Of a stretch of 64,000 nt of DNA, positions 5,838-32,447 are shown piece after piece. Numbering within the stretch: the first letter of the stretch is position 1; each line of letters begins with the position of its first letter. The position numbers were made by a program, and so were the translations under genes. The stretch spans positions 1 to 64,000 of the forward strand of contig JAPPNE010000044.1 of NCBI GenBank assembly GCA_028818775.1, read 5' to 3'. The notes below the pieces were generated by a model that saw nothing but the letters and a program-made list of their open reading frames with translations, did not search any database and was not told the DNA's origin. Source of the DNA: Deltaproteobacteria bacterium (GTDB lineage Bacteria > Desulfobacterota > Binatia > UBA9968 > JAJDTQ01).

Positions 5838-8203
5838 AGAAGAACGGGTTCTCGGTCATCGGCAAGCCGCTGCCGCGCATCGACGGTCCGGCCAAGTGCG
5901 CCGGCGACACGCGCTACGCCGACGACATGGTGCTGCCGCGCATGCTGTTTTCCCGGCTGCTGCGGAGCCCGCACCCCCACGCCCTGGTGCACGGCGTGTC
6001 GGCCCGCCGGGCGCTGGAGTTGGCGGGCGTCCACGCGGTCATCACGGGCGCGGACGTGCCTACCAAGTTCGGCATCATGCCTTCCACCCAGGACGAGGAG
6101 GCGCTGGCGGTGGACAAGGTGCGCTACGTCGGCGACCCGGTGGCGGCGGTGGCGGCGGTGAGCGAGGACGTGGCCGAGGAGGCGCTGGGGCTCATCGACG
6201 TCGACTACGAGGTGCTCGACCCCATCCTGTCCATCGAGGGCGCGCTGGCGGCCGAGGATCACCGCATCCACACGTGGAACCGGCACGCCAACATCCAGAA
6301 GGCGGTGTCCTTCGAGTTCGGCGACGTGGACGGCGGTTTCGAGGAGGCCGACGAAGTCTTCGAGGGCACCTACTTCTTCCAGGGCAACACGCACCTGCCC
6401 ATGGAGCAGTATTGCGCGCTGGCGAGCTACACCCCCGACGGCAAGCTCACGCTGTGGTCCTCCACCCAGACGCCGCACTACGTGCACCGTGCCCTGTCCC
6501 GGGTGCTGGGGCTGCCCATGGGGCACATCCGGGTGGTCGCCACGCCGGTGGGCGGCGGCTTCGGCGGCAAGAGCGACCCGTTCTCCCACGAGATCGCGGT
6601 GGCCAAGCTGGCCATGGTCACCGGGCGGCCGGTGAAGATCACCCTCAACCGGGAGGAGTCGTTCTACGTGCACCGGGGACGCCATCCGGTGAAGATGTGG
6701 ATGCGTACGGGTGTCAAGCGCGACGGCACCCTCACGGGCATGTGGTTTCGCTCCTTCCTGGACGGCGGCGGCTACAGCAGCTACGGCTTGGCCACGGTCT
6801 ACTACACCGGCGCGCTGCAGACCGTGACCTACGAGCTGCCGGCCTACAAGTTCGAGGGCGTGCGCGTGTTCACCAACAAGCCGCCGTGCGGCCCCAAGCG
6901 CGGCCACGGCACGCCGCAGCCGCGCTTCGCCATGGAAGTGCAACTTGACGAGATCGCCGAGAAGCTCGGGCTGGACCCGGTGGAAATGCGCCTCAAGCAG
7001 GTGGTGGTGCCCGACAGCGTCACCGTGAACGGTCTGCGAGTCTCCACCATCGGCCTGCGGGAATGCATCGAGAAGGTGGCCGAGCGCTCGGGCTGGAAGG
7101 ACAAGCACCGCGCGCTGCCCCACGGCCACGGCATCGGTTTCGCCGCCAGCTCCTACATCAGCGGCGCGGGCCTGCCCATCTACTGGAACGACATGCCCCA
7201 CTCGGGAGTGCAGCTCCGGGCGGACCGGGGCGGCGGCGTCACGGTCTTCTGCGGCTCCACGGACATCGGCCAGGGTTCGGACTCGATCCTCGCCTTCGCC
7301 GTGGCCGAGGAGCTGGGGCTTCGGCCGGAGGACGTGCGCGTGGTGACGGCGGACACCGACCTCACCCCGGTGGACCTGGGGAGCTACTCCAGCCGGGTCA
7401 CGGTGATGACCGGCAACGCCGCCATCCAGGCCTGCGGCAACCTCAAGGAACGCCTGTTCGAGGTGGCCTCGGAGGTGCTGGAGGTGCCCGCCGACGACCT
7501 GGAGATGGAGGAAGGGCAGGTGCGCAGCCGCAGCCTGCCGGAGCGGGGCCTGGCCTTCGCCGAGTGCGTCGAGCGCGCCGAGACCCGCTTCGGCACCCTG
7601 GGCACCACCGGCAGCTACCGGCCGCCGCGCCATCCGGGCGACTACAAGGGCGCCGGCGTCGGCCCCACGCCGTCGTACAGCTACTCCGCCGCGGTGGTGG
7701 AGCTCCACTGCGACGGCGACACCGGCGAGATCCGCATCGACAAGGTATGGATCGCCCACGACTGCGGCCGCGCCTTCAATCCCTTGTGGGTGGAGGGGCA
7801 GGTGGAGGGCAGCGTGTACATGGCGTTGGGCGAGGTCTTGATGGAAGAGCAGATCTTCCGCAAGTCGGGCGTGCACAAGATCCCTTCCATCCTGGAGTAC
7901 AAGAGCCCTACCACGCTGGAGACGCCGCCCATCGAGACCATCCTGGTGGAGACCGACGACCCCGAGGGCCCGTTCGGCGCCAAGGAGGCCGGCCAGGGTC
8001 CGCTGCTGCCCGTGATACCGGCGGTGTCCAACGCCGTCTACGATGCCGTGGGCGTGCGCATCCGCGAGATACCGGTGACCCCCGACAAGATCCTGCGGGC
8101 GCTGGACCAGCGGCTGAAGGATCCCACCGTGCCGGCCTTCGAGTTTCCCACGCCGATTCGCTGGGCCCCGGGCCAGGGCGTCGAGGTGCCGCAAAAGAGC
8201 TAG
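5834..8203 (+). CDS. hcrA: Molybdenum hydroxylase catalytic (Mo-cofactor) subunit (HcrA-like)
   Basis: A 789-residue molybdopterin-binding subunit of the xanthine oxidase family. Visible blocks are the N-terminal IGKPLPRIDGPAKCAGDTRYADD, the cofactor loop TPVGGGFGGK, the STDIGQGSDSI block and the C-terminal GPFGAKEAGQGP block. In most family members the equivalent of the last block ends in a catalytic Glu (GE); here the aligned residue is Gln721. Relatives include 4-hydroxybenzoyl-CoA reductase, CO dehydrogenase and nicotinate dehydrogenase. ATG 5834 overlaps the small-subunit stop. The gene order is small, large, FAD subunit. If the HcrB assignment holds, this is the subunit that would bind an aryl-CoA. 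Whether Gln721 is a lineage trait or changes the chemistry is open. Confidence 0.9.
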   Translation: MKKNGFSVIGKPLPRIDGPAKCAGDTRYADDMVLPRMLFSRLLRSPHPHALVHGVSARRALELAGVHAVITGADVPTKFGIMPSTQDEEALAVDKVRYVGDPVAAVAAVSEDVAEEALGLIDVDYEVLDPILSIEGALAAEDHRIHTWNRHANIQKAVSFEFGDVDGGFEEADEVFEGTYFFQGNTHLPMEQYCALASYTPDGKLTLWSSTQTPHYVHRALSRVLGLPMGHIRVVATPVGGGFGGKSDPFSHEIAVAKLAMVTGRPVKITLNREESFYVHRGRHPVKMWMRTGVKRDGTLTGMWFRSFLDGGGYSSYGLATVYYTGALQTVTYELPAYKFEGVRVFTNKPPCGPKRGHGTPQPRFAMEVQLDEIAEKLGLDPVEMRLKQVVVPDSVTVNGLRVSTIGLRECIEKVAERSGWKDKHRALPHGHGIGFAASSYISGAGLPIYWNDMPHSGVQLRADRGGGVTVFCGSTDIGQGSDSILAFAVAEELGLRPEDVRVVTADTDLTPVDLGSYSSRVTVMTGNAAIQACGNLKERLFEVASEVLEVPADDLEMEEGQVRSRSLPERGLAFAECVERAETRFGTLGTTGSYRPPRHPGDYKGAGVGPTPSYSYSAAVVELHCDGDTGEIRIDKVWIAHDCGRAFNPLWVEGQVEGSVYMALGEVLMEEQIFRKSGVHKIPSILEYKSPTTLETPPIETILVETDDPEGPFGAKEAGQGPLLPVIPAVSNAVYDAVGVRIREIPVTPDKILRALDQRLKDPTVPAFEFPTPIRWAPGQGVEVPQKS

Positions 8204-11607: not shown

Positions 11608-13029
11608 TTGACCTTTCTCAACGATACCATCGATGCGTTGGAGCATTCTCCGTCCGGACCCCTCGGCGGAAACGGGCGCGACGACATTCTCGCGGGGCTT
11701 GAAGAACACCGGCCGGAAGGCTCCTTCGACCTGTCCGATTACGCGGCGGTCATCGGCGGGGAGCGCATGGACGAGATCAAGCGGCTGGCGGAGCCGTTGA
11801 CGGGACGCACGTGGGTCAACGTCAACTCCACCTCCGTGGGCGGGGGCGTCGCCGAGATGCTGCGCAGCGCGGTTCCCTTCGCTCAGGCGCTGGGGCTGAC
11901 CGCCCGCTGGTGCACCATCCGCGGCAACGATGCGTTCTTCCAGGTCACCAAGAAGTTCCACAACCTGCTGCAGGGCGCGGACGGGCCGATTACCCTGGAC
12001 GAAATATTCGGCGCCTACCTCGACACCATCGAGGAGAACGCCCGCGATGCATTCATCGCCGCGGACCTCACCGTCCTGCACGACCCGCAGCCCGCGGCCA
12101 TGATCATGAACGCGCCGATTCTGGGCAAGACGCTCTGGCGCTGCCACATCGATACCTCGATACCCAACAAGGCCGTATGGCGCTTTCTCCTGCCGTACAT
12201 CAACCAATATGACGGTGCCATTTTCACCACGCGCGAGTTCGTGGGGCCGGGGCTCAAGGTCCCCGTGTACGAGATCATGCCGTGCATCGACCCACTGGCG
12301 CCGAAGAACCGGCACTACACCCGGGCCGAGGCGCTGGACATCCTCCAGCCGCTGTTCACGGCCGACGGCGTGGACCCCGAAAGGCCCATCTTCGCGGCTG
12401 TTTCCCGCTACGACCGTCACAAGAACCAAGGGACCATCCTCAAGGCGTTCTCGCGGCTGGTCGAGGAACGGCCGCGGGGGCCGAGGCCCTACCTGCTCTT
12501 CATCGGCAACACCGCCACCGACGACCCGGAAGGAGACGCGGTGCTGAACGAGTTGCGGCAGCAGGCCGGTGACCGCGCGGACGTCCGGTTCTGGGTCAAC
12601 GTGGAGGACAACGACCGCGTGGTGGGGGCGCTGATGAGCATCGCACGGGGCTTCGTGCACGTTTCGACCCGCGAGGGCTTCGGGCTGGTGGTGGCGGAGG
12701 CCCTGTGGCAGGGGGCGCCGGTCATCGGCTCCCGCGTGGGCGGCATCCGGCGCCAGATCATCGACGGAGTCACGGGCCATCTCGTGGAACCCCGCGATGT
12801 CGACGCCATCGCCGCGCGCATGGCGGCGGTGCTGGACGACGCGGACGCGGCGGCGGCCTTGGGGCGGCAGGGGCGGGAGCACGTGCGCGAGAACTTCCTG
12901 CTTCCGGAGTTGGTGAAGCGTTACCTGATCCTCATGAGGCACTATTTGGGCATCACCGCGGATCTTCCGCCGTTCACGTATCGCGAAATCAGCAACGATG
13001 CAGTCGCTCGTGAGTATCCGTCGGCGTAA
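11608..13029 (+). CDS. GT4-family glycosyltransferase, trehalose synthase (TreT)-like
   Basis: A 473-residue glycosyltransferase of family GT4. The N-terminal half contains VNSTSVGGGVAEMLRSAVP, ARWCTIRGNDAFFQVTKKFHN and WRCHIDTS, characteristic of trehalose glycosyl-transferring synthases. The C-terminal half has the nucleotide-sugar block AVSRYDRHKNQGTILKAF and THE E-x7-E type block STREGFGLVVAEALWQGAPVIGS. TreT enzymes join NDP-glucose and glucose to trehalose. The start is TTG 11608, preceded by CAGGAGA and the strong promoter at 11535. The neighbouring polyphosphate glucokinase also uses free glucose, so both may act on the same pool. Assignment to GT4 is secure; TreT specificity is likely but not proven. 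Confidence 0.82.
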   Translation: MTFLNDTIDALEHSPSGPLGGNGRDDILAGLEEHRPEGSFDLSDYAAVIGGERMDEIKRLAEPLTGRTWVNVNSTSVGGGVAEMLRSAVPFAQALGLTARWCTIRGNDAFFQVTKKFHNLLQGADGPITLDEIFGAYLDTIEENARDAFIAADLTVLHDPQPAAMIMNAPILGKTLWRCHIDTSIPNKAVWRFLLPYINQYDGAIFTTREFVGPGLKVPVYEIMPCIDPLAPKNRHYTRAEALDILQPLFTADGVDPERPIFAAVSRYDRHKNQGTILKAFSRLVEERPRGPRPYLLFIGNTATDDPEGDAVLNELRQQAGDRADVRFWVNVEDNDRVVGALMSIARGFVHVSTREGFGLVVAEALWQGAPVIGSRVGGIRRQIIDGVTGHLVEPRDVDAIAARMAAVLDDADAAAALGRQGREHVRENFLLPELVKRYLILMRHYLGITADLPPFTYREISNDAVAREYPSA

Positions 13030-13055: not shown

Positions 13056-13084
13056 TTTACAACTTCGTTAAAGCGGCATACTAT
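13056..13084 (+). promoter_or_regulatory. Sigma-70-type promoter for the HU-ParA-CHAD genes
   Basis: TTTACA at 13056-13061 and TACTAT at 13079-13084 with a 17-bp spacer, 60 bp upstream of the HU start. The surrounding bases are markedly AT-rich compared with the flanking genes. Confidence 0.65.
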
Positions 13085-13144
13085 TGGTCTTACCGGTTAA
13101 AATTGGAACGACATCCCGTCCACCGGGGTGAGGAAGGGAGGGTT

Positions 13145-13501
13145 ATGGCAGCGACAAAGACACCGGCGAAGGCCGCCCGGAAGACGGCGGCCAAGACAGC
13201 GACGAGAATGACCCAGGCACAGATCGTGTCTGATCTGGCGGCCAAATGCGATCTCAGCAAGACGGTGGCCAAGGATTTCCTGGACAATCTGTCGGCGTTG
13301 GCGGTCAAGGAGGTCAAGAAGAACGGCGTCTTCATCGTTCCGGGCATCGGACGCCTCGTGAAGGACAGCCGCAAGGCCCGCTTGGGACGCAATCCCGCCA
13401 CCGGCGAGACGATCAAGATTCCCGCCAAGAGGGTGGTCAAGTTTCGTGTCGCCAAGGCTTGCAAGGACGCCATCGTACCACCGAAGAAACCGCGGAGCTG
13501 A
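13145..13501 (+). CDS. HU/IHF-family DNA-binding protein with Lys/Ala-rich N-terminal tail
   Basis: A 118-residue protein. Residues 1-22 are a Lys/Ala/Thr-rich tail (AATKTPAKAARKTAAKTATR). The remainder is an HU domain: MTQAQIVSDLAAKCDLSKTVAKDFLDNL, then the beta-arm region GIGRLVKDSRKARLGRNPATGE and KRVVKFRVAKACKDAI. GRNPATGE is the conserved DNA-contacting arm signature. Such proteins bend and compact DNA; histone-like tails add nonspecific DNA or polyanion affinity. ATG 13145 follows a strong GGAAGGGAGG site and its own promoter. It is followed on the same strand by a ParA ATPase and a CHAD protein. Confidence 0.93.
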   Translation: MAATKTPAKAARKTAAKTATRMTQAQIVSDLAAKCDLSKTVAKDFLDNLSALAVKEVKKNGVFIVPGIGRLVKDSRKARLGRNPATGETIKIPAKRVVKFRVAKACKDAIVPPKKPRS

Positions 13502-13513
13502 TCCGCCCAGGCT

Positions 13514-13537
13514 GGAGGTCATGGGAGGATGGCCTCC
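13514..13537 (+). terminator. Possible attenuating hairpin between HU and ParA genes
   Basis: GGAGGTCAT (13514-13522) can pair with ATGGCCTCC (13529-13537), with one G-U pair and a 6-nt loop. There is no U-tract, so it would only partly reduce read-through. It could set a high HU to ParA ratio. Confidence 0.3.
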
Positions 13538-13578
13538 ACACGGCGCGGTGTCCTGATGGACTCGGTGGACGTTGAACC

Positions 13579-14403
13579 ATGGCGGGGGAGTCCAGACAGG
13601 GCAGGGTCCTGGCCCTCTACCATTTGAAGGGCGGAGTCGGCAAGACGACCGCCGCGGTCAATCTTGCGTATCTGAGTGCTGATTCGGGTTTCAAGACGCT
13701 GATCTGCGATCTCGACCCGCAAAGCTCGACGACTTATTTCTTCCGTGTCAAGCCGGCGCTCAAGCACGCCCGGAGGGTACTCCTCAAGGGCGGCGCGAGA
13801 GTCGCGGACAACATCAAGGGAACCGACTACGAAGGTCTGGATCTTTTGCCGGCGGATTGGTCTCTTCGGCATCTGCCGTCCCTGCTGGGTCGCGTCAAGC
13901 GATCCAAGAGGCGGCTGAGGGAGATTCTCGATCCGTTCCGGGGTGAGTACGACCTGATCGTCCTGGACAGCCCGGCCACCGCGACTCTGCTGGCGGAGTG
14001 CATATTCGTGGCCGCCGACTTGTTGCTGGTTCCGGTGGTCCCGTCTACCCTCGCGGCCCGCGCCTACGCGAACCTGCGCCTCTTCCTGCGGCGCAAGGGA
14101 TATGATGAAGCAAAGGTGTGGGGTTTCTTTTCCATGGTGGAAGCCCGCAAGAAGATGCACCGGGCCACGATGCAGGCCATGCGGGAACAGTTCCCGCAAT
14201 GGTTGCCGGCGACGATCCCCTACACCGTGGACGTCGAGAGCATGGGCCTCGCCCGGGCACCGCTTCCGGTCCGTTCCCCGAGAGCCGTCGCGACCCGGCG
14301 TTTCCGGGAGTTGTGGGAACAGGTCGCCGGACGCGTGGACGGCCGCGGCCCGGAAACGGACCCTTGGGCGCGGTCGTTTCCGGTACGCGAAGTTCTGGAA
14401 TGA
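13579..14403 (+). CDS. ParA/MinD-family ATPase
   Basis: A 274-residue P-loop ATPase of the ParA/Soj type. It has the deviant Walker A LKGGVGKTTAAVNLAYL with the signature lysine, switch I region CDLDPQSSTTYFF, and Walker B YDLIVLDSPATATLL. The C-terminal part (VWGFFSMVEARKKMHRATM) fits the family. It lacks an N-terminal DNA-binding domain, so it is the short, nucleoid-surfing type used to position plasmids, chromosomes or protein organelles. No ParB gene or parS-like sites are seen nearby, so ordinary chromosome partitioning is less likely. Its stop overlaps the start of the CHAD gene (ATGA at 14400-14403), implying coupled synthesis and a functional link with that protein. Confidence 0.88.
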   Translation: MAGESRQGRVLALYHLKGGVGKTTAAVNLAYLSADSGFKTLICDLDPQSSTTYFFRVKPALKHARRVLLKGGARVADNIKGTDYEGLDLLPADWSLRHLPSLLGRVKRSKRRLREILDPFRGEYDLIVLDSPATATLLAECIFVAADLLLVPVVPSTLAARAYANLRLFLRRKGYDEAKVWGFFSMVEARKKMHRATMQAMREQFPQWLPATIPYTVDVESMGLARAPLPVRSPRAVATRRFRELWEQVAGRVDGRGPETDPWARSFPVREVLE

Positions 14404-15959
14404 AGTCGCCGGCCACTCCCCCACCCGTAGAACAGTCTTTCCTCATCCCGTCCGGCGAGGCGGGCCGGGGCGTGTTGCGCGACTTGCGCCGGACCTTTGC
14501 CTTGAGCGAGGACGGCCGCTCCAGGGTGGAAACGCTGTACCATGACACGTTCGACGGGCGCCTCTTTGCCCGCTCCCGCGCGCTGCGCCTCGCCCGGGGG
14601 GAGTTGACGCTCGAATGTCTCGACTCGCCCCACGATGTGGCTTGCGTGTCCTTCGATGGCTCGCCTGAATTCGCCGACGGGCTTCCTCCGGGTGTGCTGC
14701 AGGAAGCGTTGCGCCCGCTCACCGGGAATCGCGCGTTGCTGCCGCTCTTCTCGATCCGCTCCGACGTTCGTGCCTGGCGTCTGACGAATCGCGAACAGAA
14801 GACAGTGCTGCGGTTGGCGCTCCTTGACGAAGAGGCGGCGTACGGCGGGCGCTCCGAGCGGCTGGGTCACCGCGTGGTGGTCCGTCAGGTACGCGGTTAC
14901 AAGAAGTCTTTCCGCGAGGTGTGCGAGTGGTGGGAGCGGCGGGGCGTCAGGCCCGAGGGCCACTCCCGCTTTCGCGCGGCGCTCGAGGCGTTGGACCTGG
15001 ACCCGGCGCGCACGGCGTCCCTGTCGCGGGTTCCGCTGACCGCCTCCATGCACGCGAGCGACGCGGTCCGGGCCATGCTGCACGCTCAGTATCGGGTGGC
15101 GCGCGCCAACGAGGAGGGCCTCCGCAACGACACGGACGCCGAGTTCCTGCACGACTTCCGGGTGGCCGTCCGCCGCGCCCGCTCCTTTCTGGGCCAACTC
15201 CGCGAAGTCTTCAAGCCCGGGCCCGCGGCCGAGTTGAGGAAGAGCCTGTCGCGCCTGGGCCGCTCCACCAATGCCCTGCGCGATCTGGACGTGTACATGG
15301 AACACCGCGGGGAATACCATGCCCTGCTCAGTGATCCCCTGGCCGGCGATCTCGCGCCGCTGTTCGATCATGTCGCGGGGGCGCGGGCCGCGGCCCGGCG
15401 GGAGGTCACGGCCGCGATGGGCTCGGCCGCCTATCGCGATGCGCTGGAGCGCTGGCGGGCATGCGTCGAGGAGGACGCGGGACTCCCCGCGGGCCGGCAC
15501 GGCTCGGAGCCCCTGGCGCAGGTGGTCGGCGCGCGCGTGGCGCGGAGGTGCCGCACCGTCCTGGAGCAAGGCTACGCCATACCCGAGAACGCCGATCCGG
15601 ACGCGTTGCATTCCCTGCGCATCGAGTGCAAGCAGCTCCGTTACCTCACCGAGGTCCTCGCAGAGCTGTCGCCGGAGGTCCGTGGCGTGGTCCCACGCCT
15701 CAAGAAGCTTCAGGACGCGCTCGGGAGGATACAGGACCTGACCGTGCACGAGGCCCGGACACGGGACTTCGCCCGCGCCCTGTCGGAGGCGGGCTCCGAT
15801 GCGGCGCTGCCGGCAATCGAGGTGCTGGTGTCGCGCATGGGCGCGGAAAGGGACCTGGAGTGCGCCAGGGTGCGCGGGCTGTTCGTCAAGTTCAGCCGCG
15901 GCCTGCGTGAAACCGAGCCGCCGTATACGCTGCTGCTGCCCTGGCTGCGGCCGTTGTAA
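14400..15959 (+). CDS. CHAD domain protein with degenerate CYTH-like N-terminus
   Basis: A 519-residue protein. Residues 1-200 resemble a CYTH/triphosphatase tunnel fold (YHDTFDGRLFARSRALRLARG), but the ExExK catalytic signature is replaced by EQSF, so catalysis is doubtful. Residues about 216-519 form a CHAD domain, with conserved His/Arg blocks LHDFRVAVRRARSFL and LHSLRIECKQLRYLTE that provide a basic surface. CHAD domains bind inorganic polyphosphate and target polyphosphate granules in bacteria studied so far. The gene is translationally coupled to a ParA ATPase and lies 44 bp from the convergent polyphosphate glucokinase gene. This makes a polyphosphate-granule adaptor a reasonable inference. 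Confidence 0.85.
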   Translation: MKSPATPPPVEQSFLIPSGEAGRGVLRDLRRTFALSEDGRSRVETLYHDTFDGRLFARSRALRLARGELTLECLDSPHDVACVSFDGSPEFADGLPPGVLQEALRPLTGNRALLPLFSIRSDVRAWRLTNREQKTVLRLALLDEEAAYGGRSERLGHRVVVRQVRGYKKSFREVCEWWERRGVRPEGHSRFRAALEALDLDPARTASLSRVPLTASMHASDAVRAMLHAQYRVARANEEGLRNDTDAEFLHDFRVAVRRARSFLGQLREVFKPGPAAELRKSLSRLGRSTNALRDLDVYMEHRGEYHALLSDPLAGDLAPLFDHVAGARAAARREVTAAMGSAAYRDALERWRACVEEDAGLPAGRHGSEPLAQVVGARVARRCRTVLEQGYAIPENADPDALHSLRIECKQLRYLTEVLAELSPEVRGVVPRLKKLQDALGRIQDLTVHEARTRDFARALSEAGSDAALPAIEVLVSRMGAERDLECARVRGLFVKFSRGLRETEPPYTLLLPWLRPL

Positions 15960-16003: not shown

Positions 16004-16768
16004 CTAGCGCGGCGTTCGGCGGCGCGAAGGGAACATGGCCGCGCCGATGATGCCGGCCTGGTTGCCGAGGCGGGCGGCCTCCACCCGACAGCCCACGTCC
16101 TTGATGTAGGGGAAGAACCTTTCGGGGCGCTTGCTGACGCCGCCACCCAGGATGAACAGATCGACTCCCAGCAGGTACTCGACGTGGACCAGGTAGTCGT
16201 TGAGCCGCTTGCCCCACTTCTTCCAGCTCAGGCGCCTGCTCGTGCGGATGCTCGCCGCCGCTCGCTTCTCGGCGGGCTTGCCGCGCATCTCGAGGTGCCC
16301 CAGCTCCGTGTCGGGCAGCAGGACGCCGTCGCGGAAGACGGCTGATCCGATGCCGGTCCCCAGGGTGACCACCAGCACGGTGCCGGCGACACCCTTGCCC
16401 GCGCCGAACTCGAACTCCGCCAGCCCGGCGGCGTCGGCGTCGTTGCCGATGGCCACGCTCGGCGCGTTCAGCTCGGTCTCGAGACGGCCTGCCAGGTCAT
16501 AGCCGATCCATGAGGGATCGAGGTTGGGTGCGCGCTGGACCCGGCCGCTCTTGACCAGGCCGGGGAAGCCGCAGCCCACCGCGCCGCGCCATTGCAGTTG
16601 CCGCCGCAGCTCCTTGATGGTCTCCATGACCGCCGCCGGCGTCGCCGGCTGCGGCGTGGGCTGGCGCACGCGTTCCGTCGCCAGCTCTCCGCTCGCGGTA
16701 TCCACCAGCGCCGCCTTGACCCCGGTGCCGCCGATGTCGATGCCCATGACTCTGTCTGCTTCGCTCAT
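16004..16768 (-). CDS. ppgK: Polyphosphate glucokinase
   Basis: A 254-residue ROK-fold kinase. It has the phosphate loop GIDIGGTGVKAALVD, the polyphosphate glucokinase block TPQPATPAAVMETI, GFPGLVKSGRVQRAPNLDPSWIG, NDADAAGLAEFEFG and TLGTGIGSAVFRDGVLLPDTELGHLEM. These match the polyphosphate-dependent branch rather than ordinary ROK glucokinases, and the length is typical. It phosphorylates glucose to glucose-6-phosphate using polyphosphate (or ATP). ATG 16768 is preceded by an AGGAGACG-like site. It is convergent with the CHAD gene, and ppk1, which makes its substrate, lies about 14 kb away. Confidence 0.92.
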   Translation of the reverse strand: MSEADRVMGIDIGGTGVKAALVDTASGELATERVRQPTPQPATPAAVMETIKELRRQLQWRGAVGCGFPGLVKSGRVQRAPNLDPSWIGYDLAGRLETELNAPSVAIGNDADAAGLAEFEFGAGKGVAGTVLVVTLGTGIGSAVFRDGVLLPDTELGHLEMRGKPAEKRAAASIRTSRRLSWKKWGKRLNDYLVHVEYLLGVDLFILGGGVSKRPERFFPYIKDVGCRVEAARLGNQAGIIGAAMFPSRRRTPR

Positions 16769-16915
16769 CGTCTCCTCGTAGCCGCGCACGTGAACTCTGC
16801 CGCTTCATCATCATGGAACCCCCGCCACAATTCAACACCCGGCAACAGGCTCACCTTGCCGGAGACGGGAAATCCTGCACATATTGGTCCACGGGCTCTG
16901 TAACGCACCATCATC

Positions 16916-30335: not shown

Positions 30336-32447
30336 TCAGCGCGCCAGGCGCAGGCCCACGTCCGCTTCCGGCTTGGGCGCGTGCTGTTCGGCCAGGTAGG
30401 CGTAGATGGCTTCCTGGGCGTGCGTTCGACTGCCGCCGGCCGCGGGCTGGTAGCGGTTGCGCAGGTCCTTGTCCAGCACCCGCGCCTTGACGTTGTCGTC
30501 CCAGAGGATGTCGAGCAGGTCCTTGAGCCGCTTCTTGAGCGAAGGATCGTAGACGGGACAGGCTACCTCGACCCGGTGGTCCACGTTGCGTTCCATCCAG
30601 TCGCCCGAGGAGATGAAGAACTTCTCGTCGCCGCCGTCGGCGAACGCCATGACCCGCGAATGTTCCAGGAAGCGGTCGAGGATCGCCGTGGCCTGTATGC
30701 GCTCGCTCACGTCCTTGACACCCGGAACCAGCGAGAACATCCCGCGCACCATGAGGCGCACGTCGACACCGGCCTCGCTCGCCTCGTAGAGTTTCCGGAT
30801 CAGGCCGCGGTCCTCGAGGTTGTTGACCTTGAGGATGATCCAGGCGGGCAGGCCCTTGCCGGCGTTCTTGATCTCGGTGTCGATGAACCGCGTGAGCTTG
30901 CGCCGGGTGTCGTAGGGAGAAACCAGCAGGTGCTTGAAGGTGGTCCGCCGGTAATTGGATTCGAGGAAGCTGAAGACCCGCTTGACCTCGCCGGTGATGC
31001 GTTCGTCGGCGGTGAACAGGCTGTCGTCGGTGTATATGCGCGCGGTGGTCTCGTTGAAGTTCCCGCTGCTGACGTTGGCGTAGAGCACGGTCTTGCGGTG
31101 CGACACCCGGGTGATGAGGATCAGCTTGGCGTGGACCTTGAGTCCCGGCACGCCGTGGATGACCCGTACCCCTTCCTCCTGCAGCCGCTCCGACCAGTAG
31201 ACGTTGTCGGCCTCGTCGAAGCGCGCCTGCAGCTCCATCACCACCGTGACCTTCTTGCCGTTGCGGCTGGCGTTGATCAGCGCATTGACGATCTTCGAGT
31301 TCCGCGCCACCCGGTACAGCGTCATCTTGATGGAGCGCACCTTGGGGTCGATGGCGGCCTGCCGCAGGAACTCGATCAGGTAGTCGAAGTCCTGGTACGG
31401 GTAGTGCACCAGGATGTCCCGGCGCCGGATGGCCTTGAAGAAAGTCTTCTCCGCGTCGATGTGTCCGTGCGGCAGCGGCGGCAAGGGAACCGCCGACAGC
31501 TTCTTCGGGCCGATGCGCGGGAACCCCATGAAGTCCTTGAAGTTGTGATAGCGTCCGCCGGGGATGAACGGTCCCGACTGGTCGTCCAGCCCCATCTTGT
31601 CCTTCAGCAGCTTGAGCAACCGCCGGGGGATCTGGTTGTCGTAGATGAAGCGCACCGGCGCCCCGGACCGGCGCTGCTTGAGTCCCTTGGAGATCTTCTC
31701 GATGTAGCTCTCGTAGAGGTCGTCGTCCAGGTCGAGTTGGGCGTCGCGCGTCAGCTTGATGGTGTAGGCCTCGAAATGGTCGAACGGGAAGATCGAGAAG
31801 ATGTCCTTGAGGCAATAGCGGATGACGTCGTCCAGCAGGATGACGTAGTGCCGGTCGCCCGCCCGCGGCAGGATCACGAAGCGCGACAACACGTCGGTGG
31901 GGATCTCGATCAGCGCGTATTCCGACCGCCGGGAGCCGCTGCTGTAGAGCCAGATGGCAAGATAGATGGCCTGGTCCTTGAGCTGCGGGAACTCCGTCAG
32001 GTGGTTGATCATCAACGGAATCAGGTTCGGCCGCAGCTTCTGCTGGTAGAATTCCTCGATGAACGCCTGCTGATCGCGGTTCAGGTCCTTCTCCGTGACG
32101 ATGGAGATGCCGTGGCGCCGCAACTCCGCGAGAATGTTCCGGTAGATGCTCTCGAAGTCGGCCTGCTGCTTCAGGACGACGGCATGGATTTCCTGGAGCA
32201 CCTGTGCGGGGTCGTCGCCCATGAGGCGCTGCGCGCCGGCGCCGATCTGCTCCAGGCGCCGCAGGTGCGCCACGCGCACGCGAAAGAACTCGTCCTGGTT
32301 GGACGAAAAGATCCCGAGGAAGGTCAGCCGCTCAAGCAACGGCACCGACGGGTCCGACGCCTCCTGAAGGACGCGGCCGTTGAACGCCAGCCAGCTTATC
32401 TCCTTGTTTCGCAGCGGCAGCGTCGAATTTTTTTTCCGTCCGGCCAT
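30336..32447 (-). CDS. ppk1: Polyphosphate kinase 1
   Basis: A 703-residue PPK1. N-terminal NKEISWLAFNGRVLQEASD, FSSNQDEFFRVRVAHL, the middle block PFDHFEAYTIKLTRDAQLD, the phospholipase-D-like catalytic blocks HAKLILITRVSH (autophosphorylated histidine) and DHRVEVACPVYD, and FISSGDWMERNVDHR are all present at normal spacing. It reversibly makes polyphosphate from ATP. It lies alone between two inverted-repeat elements. With ppgK and the CHAD protein at 14-17 kb it indicates an active polyphosphate economy. Confidence 0.97.
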   Translation of the reverse strand: MAGRKKNSTLPLRNKEISWLAFNGRVLQEASDPSVPLLERLTFLGIFSSNQDEFFRVRVAHLRRLEQIGAGAQRLMGDDPAQVLQEIHAVVLKQQADFESIYRNILAELRRHGISIVTEKDLNRDQQAFIEEFYQQKLRPNLIPLMINHLTEFPQLKDQAIYLAIWLYSSGSRRSEYALIEIPTDVLSRFVILPRAGDRHYVILLDDVIRYCLKDIFSIFPFDHFEAYTIKLTRDAQLDLDDDLYESYIEKISKGLKQRRSGAPVRFIYDNQIPRRLLKLLKDKMGLDDQSGPFIPGGRYHNFKDFMGFPRIGPKKLSAVPLPPLPHGHIDAEKTFFKAIRRRDILVHYPYQDFDYLIEFLRQAAIDPKVRSIKMTLYRVARNSKIVNALINASRNGKKVTVVMELQARFDEADNVYWSERLQEEGVRVIHGVPGLKVHAKLILITRVSHRKTVLYANVSSGNFNETTARIYTDDSLFTADERITGEVKRVFSFLESNYRRTTFKHLLVSPYDTRRKLTRFIDTEIKNAGKGLPAWIILKVNNLEDRGLIRKLYEASEAGVDVRLMVRGMFSLVPGVKDVSERIQATAILDRFLEHSRVMAFADGGDEKFFISSGDWMERNVDHRVEVACPVYDPSLKKRLKDLLDILWDDNVKARVLDKDLRNRYQPAAGGSRTHAQEAIYAYLAEQHAPKPEADVGLRLAR

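Follow-up and report, generated by a model that had tools for sequence, protein, structure and literature searches.

The ParA-type ATPase and the CHAD protein encoded side by side in a 64-kb window (the whole stretch analysed, positions 1 to 64,000 of contig JAPPNE010000044.1, from the 4.1-Mb draft genome of a Deltaproteobacteria bacterium) probably position and segregate polyphosphate (polyP) granules, with the CHAD protein as cargo adaptor and the HU gene that precedes the pair as a bystander, a reading to which we assign a probability of about two in three. It rests on the gene families involved, their pairing, the clusters of polyP genes in which they are found, the absence of ParB and the intact polyP-binding and ATPase residues. 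An initial annotation had interpreted the HU, ParA and CHAD genes as one candidate polyP-granule positioning system; the association of the ParA-CHAD pair with polyP genes in the absence of ParB is borne out, the inclusion of HU is not. The three genes do lie in a row on the plus strand, and the last two share the ATGA overlap that had been described.

Conservation of the ParA-CHAD pair

Members of the window ParA's subfamily were sought in two draws, 395 genomes of the source organism's own phylum and 396 genomes of a second phylum, the latter centred on an Acidobacteria genome (L035). Only six ParA candidates were scored per genome, and the counts obtained should be read as minimum values: 22 of 395 genomes (the source genome counted) and 21 of 396. 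CHAD directly adjoins the subfamily ParA in 18 of the 22 and 16 of the 21, respectively, corresponding to 34 of 43 genomes for the two draws together. Within the source genus the two genes are neighbours in all eight species carrying the ParA, the one species without it being represented by a 76%-complete genome. In a second family of the class, ParA (∼47% identical) and CHAD (∼31%) are adjacent in a convergent arrangement in seven of seven species of one genus; beyond these two genera no subfamily ParA was detected among the 148 genomes of the class that were searched. The 3′ ends of the convergent genes overlap by ∼160 bp in all seven species (e.g. L037:8922-11274), an unusual antisense overlap. 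Three gene arrangements are observed overall, CHAD-ParA, ParA-CHAD and convergent, and a 4-bp overlap recurs at 11 further loci with the gene order opposite to that of the window.

The pair is also present outside the two phylum draws, CHAD being located beside the subfamily ParA in six of six Paracoccus plasmid records. Four other plasmid records, from Halomonas, Pontibacter, Marinobacter and Novosphingobium, contain a more distant ParA, in the vicinity of which no CHAD was detected. On the Marinobacter plasmid pMAQU02 (L134:5998-8506) this distant member lies beside a Bmp-family protein and near phbB and pyruvate kinase. No CHAD relative was detected in viral contigs, in which ParA matches were only distant. 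Adjacency confined to the source genome, which the initial annotation had named as grounds for abandoning its reading, was looked for and did not occur. Conservation of ParA and CHAD as a pair, across numerous families in two phyla and also on plasmids of Paracoccus, is strongly supported.

The control set comprised 18 chromosomal parA loci from the class, each taken with ∼7 kb of flanking sequence in both directions. None of these contained CHAD, compared with an adjacent CHAD gene in 34 of 43 genomes for the subfamily (Fisher p = 4e-9), and PPK1, PPK2, CYTH and NUDIX/SixA genes were likewise absent from all 18. Conversely, ParB was present at every one of the 18 control loci and at no subfamily locus, so that a ParB right beside ParA in relatives, a further finding that the initial annotation had set against itself, was not encountered. 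Presence of CHAD anywhere in the genome followed the same pattern among the 395 genomes, being observed in 19 of 22 with the subfamily ParA versus 29 of 373 without it (Fisher p = 1e-16). These p values overstate independence because the genomes are related; occurrence in two phyla and in three gene arrangements is the stronger argument.

The ParA subfamily

A branch with 100/100 support separates the subfamily from the chromosomal ParA proteins of the same genomes in a 51-protein tree. Residues K17, G18, G19, K22, T23, D44, D46 and D130 are invariant in an alignment of 30 members, and the window protein possesses the deviant Walker A motif (KGGxGKT) with its signature lysine, the switch I Asp and the Walker B Asp. 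R190, which is nearly invariant in the subfamily and is followed by Lys191, aligns with Soj Arg189, a position that we take to be a DNA-contact residue. ATP-dependent dimerisation and non-specific binding to the nucleoid or membrane, traits of ParA/MinD ATPases, are predicted for the protein. A subfamily motif, IPY-DVE-MG, replaces the IPRNVRLAEAPS stretch of Soj in the alignment and may mark a different partner. The closest solved structures are those of DNA-segregation ParA/Soj proteins (8ray, Soj), BcsQ scoring far lower; McdA structures reach at most 65 bits, versus 134 for a ParA.

The CHAD protein

The CHAD gene of the window is the only one in the source genome. The domain extends from residue 225 to 453 (E 1.7e-50; 172.6 bits, cut-off 25.6), and its nearest solved relative is CtCHAD of Chlorobium, for which a structure with polyP is available. 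H251, R254, R258, R294, R414 and Y415 are invariant in 26 paired CHAD proteins and correspond to CtCHAD H253, R256, R260, R296, R418 and Y419. Mutation of His253, Arg256, Arg260, Arg296 or Arg418/Tyr419 in CtCHAD weakens polyP binding (PMC6537752). The earlier designation of CHAD as a polyP binder is upheld in that every one of these residues is intact in the paired proteins.

The first ∼200 residues form an additional domain, overlooked in the initial annotation, with a conserved D-T-F-D-W/G-R-L motif and with no Pfam or PDB match. This N-terminal domain is a candidate for the region that contacts ParA; a natural ParA-CHAD fusion was not seen. The domain was suspected to be a CYTH domain on the basis of a Y-x-D-T-F-D motif, an assignment that Pfam, PDB and profile comparison did not support: no Pfam CYTH match to the window CHAD protein, and no CYTH/TTM domain in it, was detected at E ≤10, and profile comparison with a neighbouring CYTH family returned a probability of 1%. 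The same N-terminal domain is present in long CHAD proteins that lack ParA (L163, L164, L177, L178). Two of the long CHAD genes at L177, L178 and L179 have PPK2 and NUDIX/SixA neighbours, and these three loci constitute natural absence cases for a comparison of granule positioning.

Polyphosphate genes at the loci

Genes for PPK1, PPK2, CYTH, SixA-type histidine phosphatases and NUDIX proteins, confirmed by Pfam, occur in clusters with the pair. Leaving the window aside, 22 own-phylum loci were considered, and at 20 of them at least one polyP-related gene is located beside or near ParA. Some loci consist of a single run, PPK1-CHAD-ParA-CYTH-NUDIX/SixA at loci such as L137, L139 and L149, and PPK1-CYTH-CHAD-ParA at L144 and L147; CYTH genes are present at nine own-phylum loci and in Paracoccus. 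On the Acidobacteria side, PPK1, PPK2, CYTH or NUDIX/SixA genes are observed at several loci. Genome G473 (L156:1007-2969, 7049-7798) carries a subfamily ParA near two PPK2 genes and contains no CHAD gene. NUDIX and SixA histidine phosphatase domains recur in the polyP clusters as fusions or neighbours (L148:1320-2276; L137, L149, L152), and the combination may represent an unstudied polyP or nucleotide-polyphosphate hydrolase.

The window's own polyP links, missed in the initial annotation, which had advised a search of genomes for ppk/ppgK linkage, are ppgK and ppk1 (Table 1). ppgK lies directly downstream of the CHAD gene and is convergent with it, and ppk1 is on the same contig at a distance of 14–16 kb from the pair. 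We propose that Ppk1 makes the polyP that would be the cargo; PpgK is possibly a user of the stored polymer, outside the core system. A TreT-like trehalose synthase gene and the polyphosphate glucokinase gene flank the cluster throughout the genus, hinting at a link between sugar and polyP.

Table 1. Positions of the genes and elements discussed in the 64-kb window
Feature	Coordinates	Strand	Evidence
TreT-like glycosyltransferase (trehalose synthase) gene, 5′ of HU	11608..13029		
HU-like DNA-binding protein gene	13145..13501	+	Pfam PF00216, E 8.5e-22
ParA-type ATPase gene, 274 aa	13579..14403	+	Pfam AAA_31 PF13614, E 1.4e-30
parA/CHAD gene ATGA start/stop overlap	14400..14403	+	sequence
CHAD protein gene, 519 aa, proposed granule adaptor	14400..15959	+	Pfam CHAD
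CHAD protein N-terminal domain, ∼200 aa	14400..14999	+	conserved in long CHAD proteins
ppgK, polyphosphate--glucose phosphotransferase	16004..16789	-	NCBIfam NF045942, 295 bits, cut-off 250
ppk1, polyphosphate kinase 1	30336..32447	-	PF02503 match; profile match 936 bits; ORF

Proposed mechanism and alternatives

We propose that parA and the CHAD gene encode a two-protein system for positioning and segregating polyP granules. The CHAD protein would coat the granule, gripping polyP through its conserved basic pore, and as cargo adaptor would stimulate the ParA ATPase, probably via its N-terminal domain. ParA-ATP dimers would bind the nucleoid non-specifically, CHAD-coated granules would locally release them and then climb the remaining ParA gradient in the manner of a diffusion ratchet. 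This would disperse the granules and deliver them to both daughter cells, in the way that McdA acts on McdB-coated carboxysomes.

Several observations weigh against this proposal. Nine of the 43 genomes with a subfamily ParA lack an adjacent CHAD gene. Four of these are in the own-phylum draw: G182 and G473 contain no CHAD gene at all, in G384 it is elsewhere in the genome, and in G466 none was found, the ParA being located at a contig edge of a 76%-complete genome and followed by CYTH and NUDIX/SixA genes. In the L035 Acidobacteria genome a single long CHAD gene is on a different contig from ParA. Conversely, long CHAD genes exist without a subfamily ParA beside them, in G385, G365 and G161 (L177, L178 and L179). 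The correlation between pairwise ParA and CHAD distances (r = 0.91 over 23 pairs), which counts in favour of the pair, partly reflects shared species history. A basic N-terminal activating peptide of the kind typical of ParA partners is not evident in the window CHAD protein, and AlphaFold2 models from shallow alignments were too poor for use (pLDDT 46 for CHAD from 4 sequences and 53 for ParA from 5). Finally, the contact between ParA and CHAD, the nucleoid gradient and the movement of granules are themselves what we infer.

The principal rival is that the ATPase, instead of moving granules, controls how polyP is synthesised or how a polyP enzyme complex assembles at the granule, with CHAD as a scaffold, much as the related BcsQ is linked to cellulose synthesis. 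Such a role would suit neighbourhoods shared with PPK1, PPK2, CYTH and NUDIX/SixA enzymes, and also the G473 locus, where ParA accompanies two PPK2 genes in the absence of CHAD. However, the constant partner is a non-enzymatic binding protein and not any single enzyme, solved structures of DNA-segregation ParA/Soj proteins are closer than that of BcsQ, and the presumed DNA-contact position of Soj is retained (Arg190, next to Lys191); we consider a role in synthesis unlikely. A connection of polyP to another process through CYTH/NUDIX enzymes, for example the cAMP signalling associated with CYTH-CHAD in Acidithiobacillus (PMC6416229), could account for the CYTH genes at own-phylum loci and in Paracoccus, but no CYTH domain could be detected in the window CHAD protein, nor does a CYTH gene lie next to its gene, making this the least credible of the explanations considered. 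Scarcely more credible is an ordinary plasmid or chromosome partition ATPase beside which CHAD lies by chance. Some subfamily members are indeed on plasmids, and database models name the window protein a partition ATPase, although with scores below cut-off. Against this, the adjacency to CHAD is kept in two phyla and three arrangements, and a distinct parA-parB pair is encoded on contig 46 (C46) of the source genome. As the initial annotation had noted, the ATPase is without its usual partners: ParB was not found next to the window ParA, and no parS-like site was detected in the 64-kb window at ≤3 mismatches to the consensus. A plain ParABS system was rejected on these grounds together with the separate clade formed by the subfamily.

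A three-gene system, with a Lys/Ala-rich HU serving like AlgP as the tether between granules and nucleoid and the ParA-CHAD pair adding spacing, is closest to the original interpretation and appears improbable. HU, ParA and CHAD have the same orientation with short gaps, one promoter-like site was detected and lies upstream of HU, and AlgP of Pseudomonas aeruginosa provides a precedent (PMC9239181). HU is also next to ParA in eight of eight congeners. This adjacency carries no special signal, however, because a ten-gene block, from a xanthine-dehydrogenase-like gene to KefB, is syntenic in the genus, and no HU gene was detected near ParA in the stretches searched around 54 other subfamily loci. 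The Lys/Ala stretch, MAATKTPAKAARKTAAKTATR, had been described as a tail but is an N-terminal extension of ∼20 residues, and it is missing from four of seven congeners (L039, L040, L041, L045). In addition, the source genome encodes five HU-family genes. HU as a third component is not sustained by these results, and the gene is probably a bystander outside the ParA-CHAD system.

Relation to known systems

A search of the open-licence literature revealed no proposal of ParA-driven positioning of polyP granules; work elsewhere may exist. A 2025 review gives AlgP as the sole factor for polyP granule spacing, with no ATPase, and leaves the energy need open (PMC13052382), and polyphosphate does not figure in a 2023 survey of ParA/MinD cargoes in Halothiobacillus (PMC10241942). 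An Acidithiobacillus folD-ppk-parA-CHAD cluster was reported in 2019 and 2024, its parA assigned to the partitioning of chromosomes or plasmids and its CHAD taken to be copper- or cAMP-related (PMC6416229, PMC10892726). This is a neighbourhood of the same kind, likened here by gene content; unlike the present work, those papers proposed no positioning role and made no wider survey. The initial statement that no established system has such a composition has to be qualified in view of this cluster, described earlier under a different interpretation.

A conserved ParA together with a proven polyP-binding domain offers a testable two-gene answer to how bacteria space and share polyP granules. Paracoccus carries the pair on plasmids and it can therefore be tested in cultured strains. 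If correct, the ParA/MinD family gains a cargo and CHAD proteins gain a role beyond binding. We consider it fairly probable that a dedicated, ATP-driven ParA-family system with a CHAD adaptor, widespread in at least two phyla and also carried on some plasmids, positions polyP granules and ensures their inheritance; the granules would represent a new class of cargo for ParA/MinD ATPases.

Comparison with characterised systems indicates both likenesses and differences. ParABS systems (ParA/Soj) include the nearest solved relatives and have the same ATPase motifs; the window subfamily is a separate clade with no ParB and with IPY-DVE-MG in the place of IPRNVRLAEAPS. The CHAD phosins and CtCHAD share the CHAD domain with identical polyP-binding residues, but are described as binding polyP only, and ParA does not appear as a gene in the text of the CtCHAD paper (PMC6537752). 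Unlike CYTH-CHAD (YgiF-like) proteins, the window protein has no detectable N-terminal CYTH domain. AlgP of P. aeruginosa resembles the proposed system in what it handles and what it achieves, the spacing of polyP granules over the nucleoid (PMC9239181), but it is a single histone H1-like tether, and no ATPase is known to participate. McdA-McdB, which positions carboxysomes, differs in its cargo, polyP granules being proposed here; moreover, CHAD bears no relation to McdB, and McdA is only a distant sequence relative of the window ParA. The two systems are nevertheless alike in design, each combining a ParA-family ATPase, without ParB or parS, with a cargo-tied protein encoded beside it, and in both the gene for the adaptor, here the proposed adaptor CHAD, adjoins that for the ATPase across lineages.

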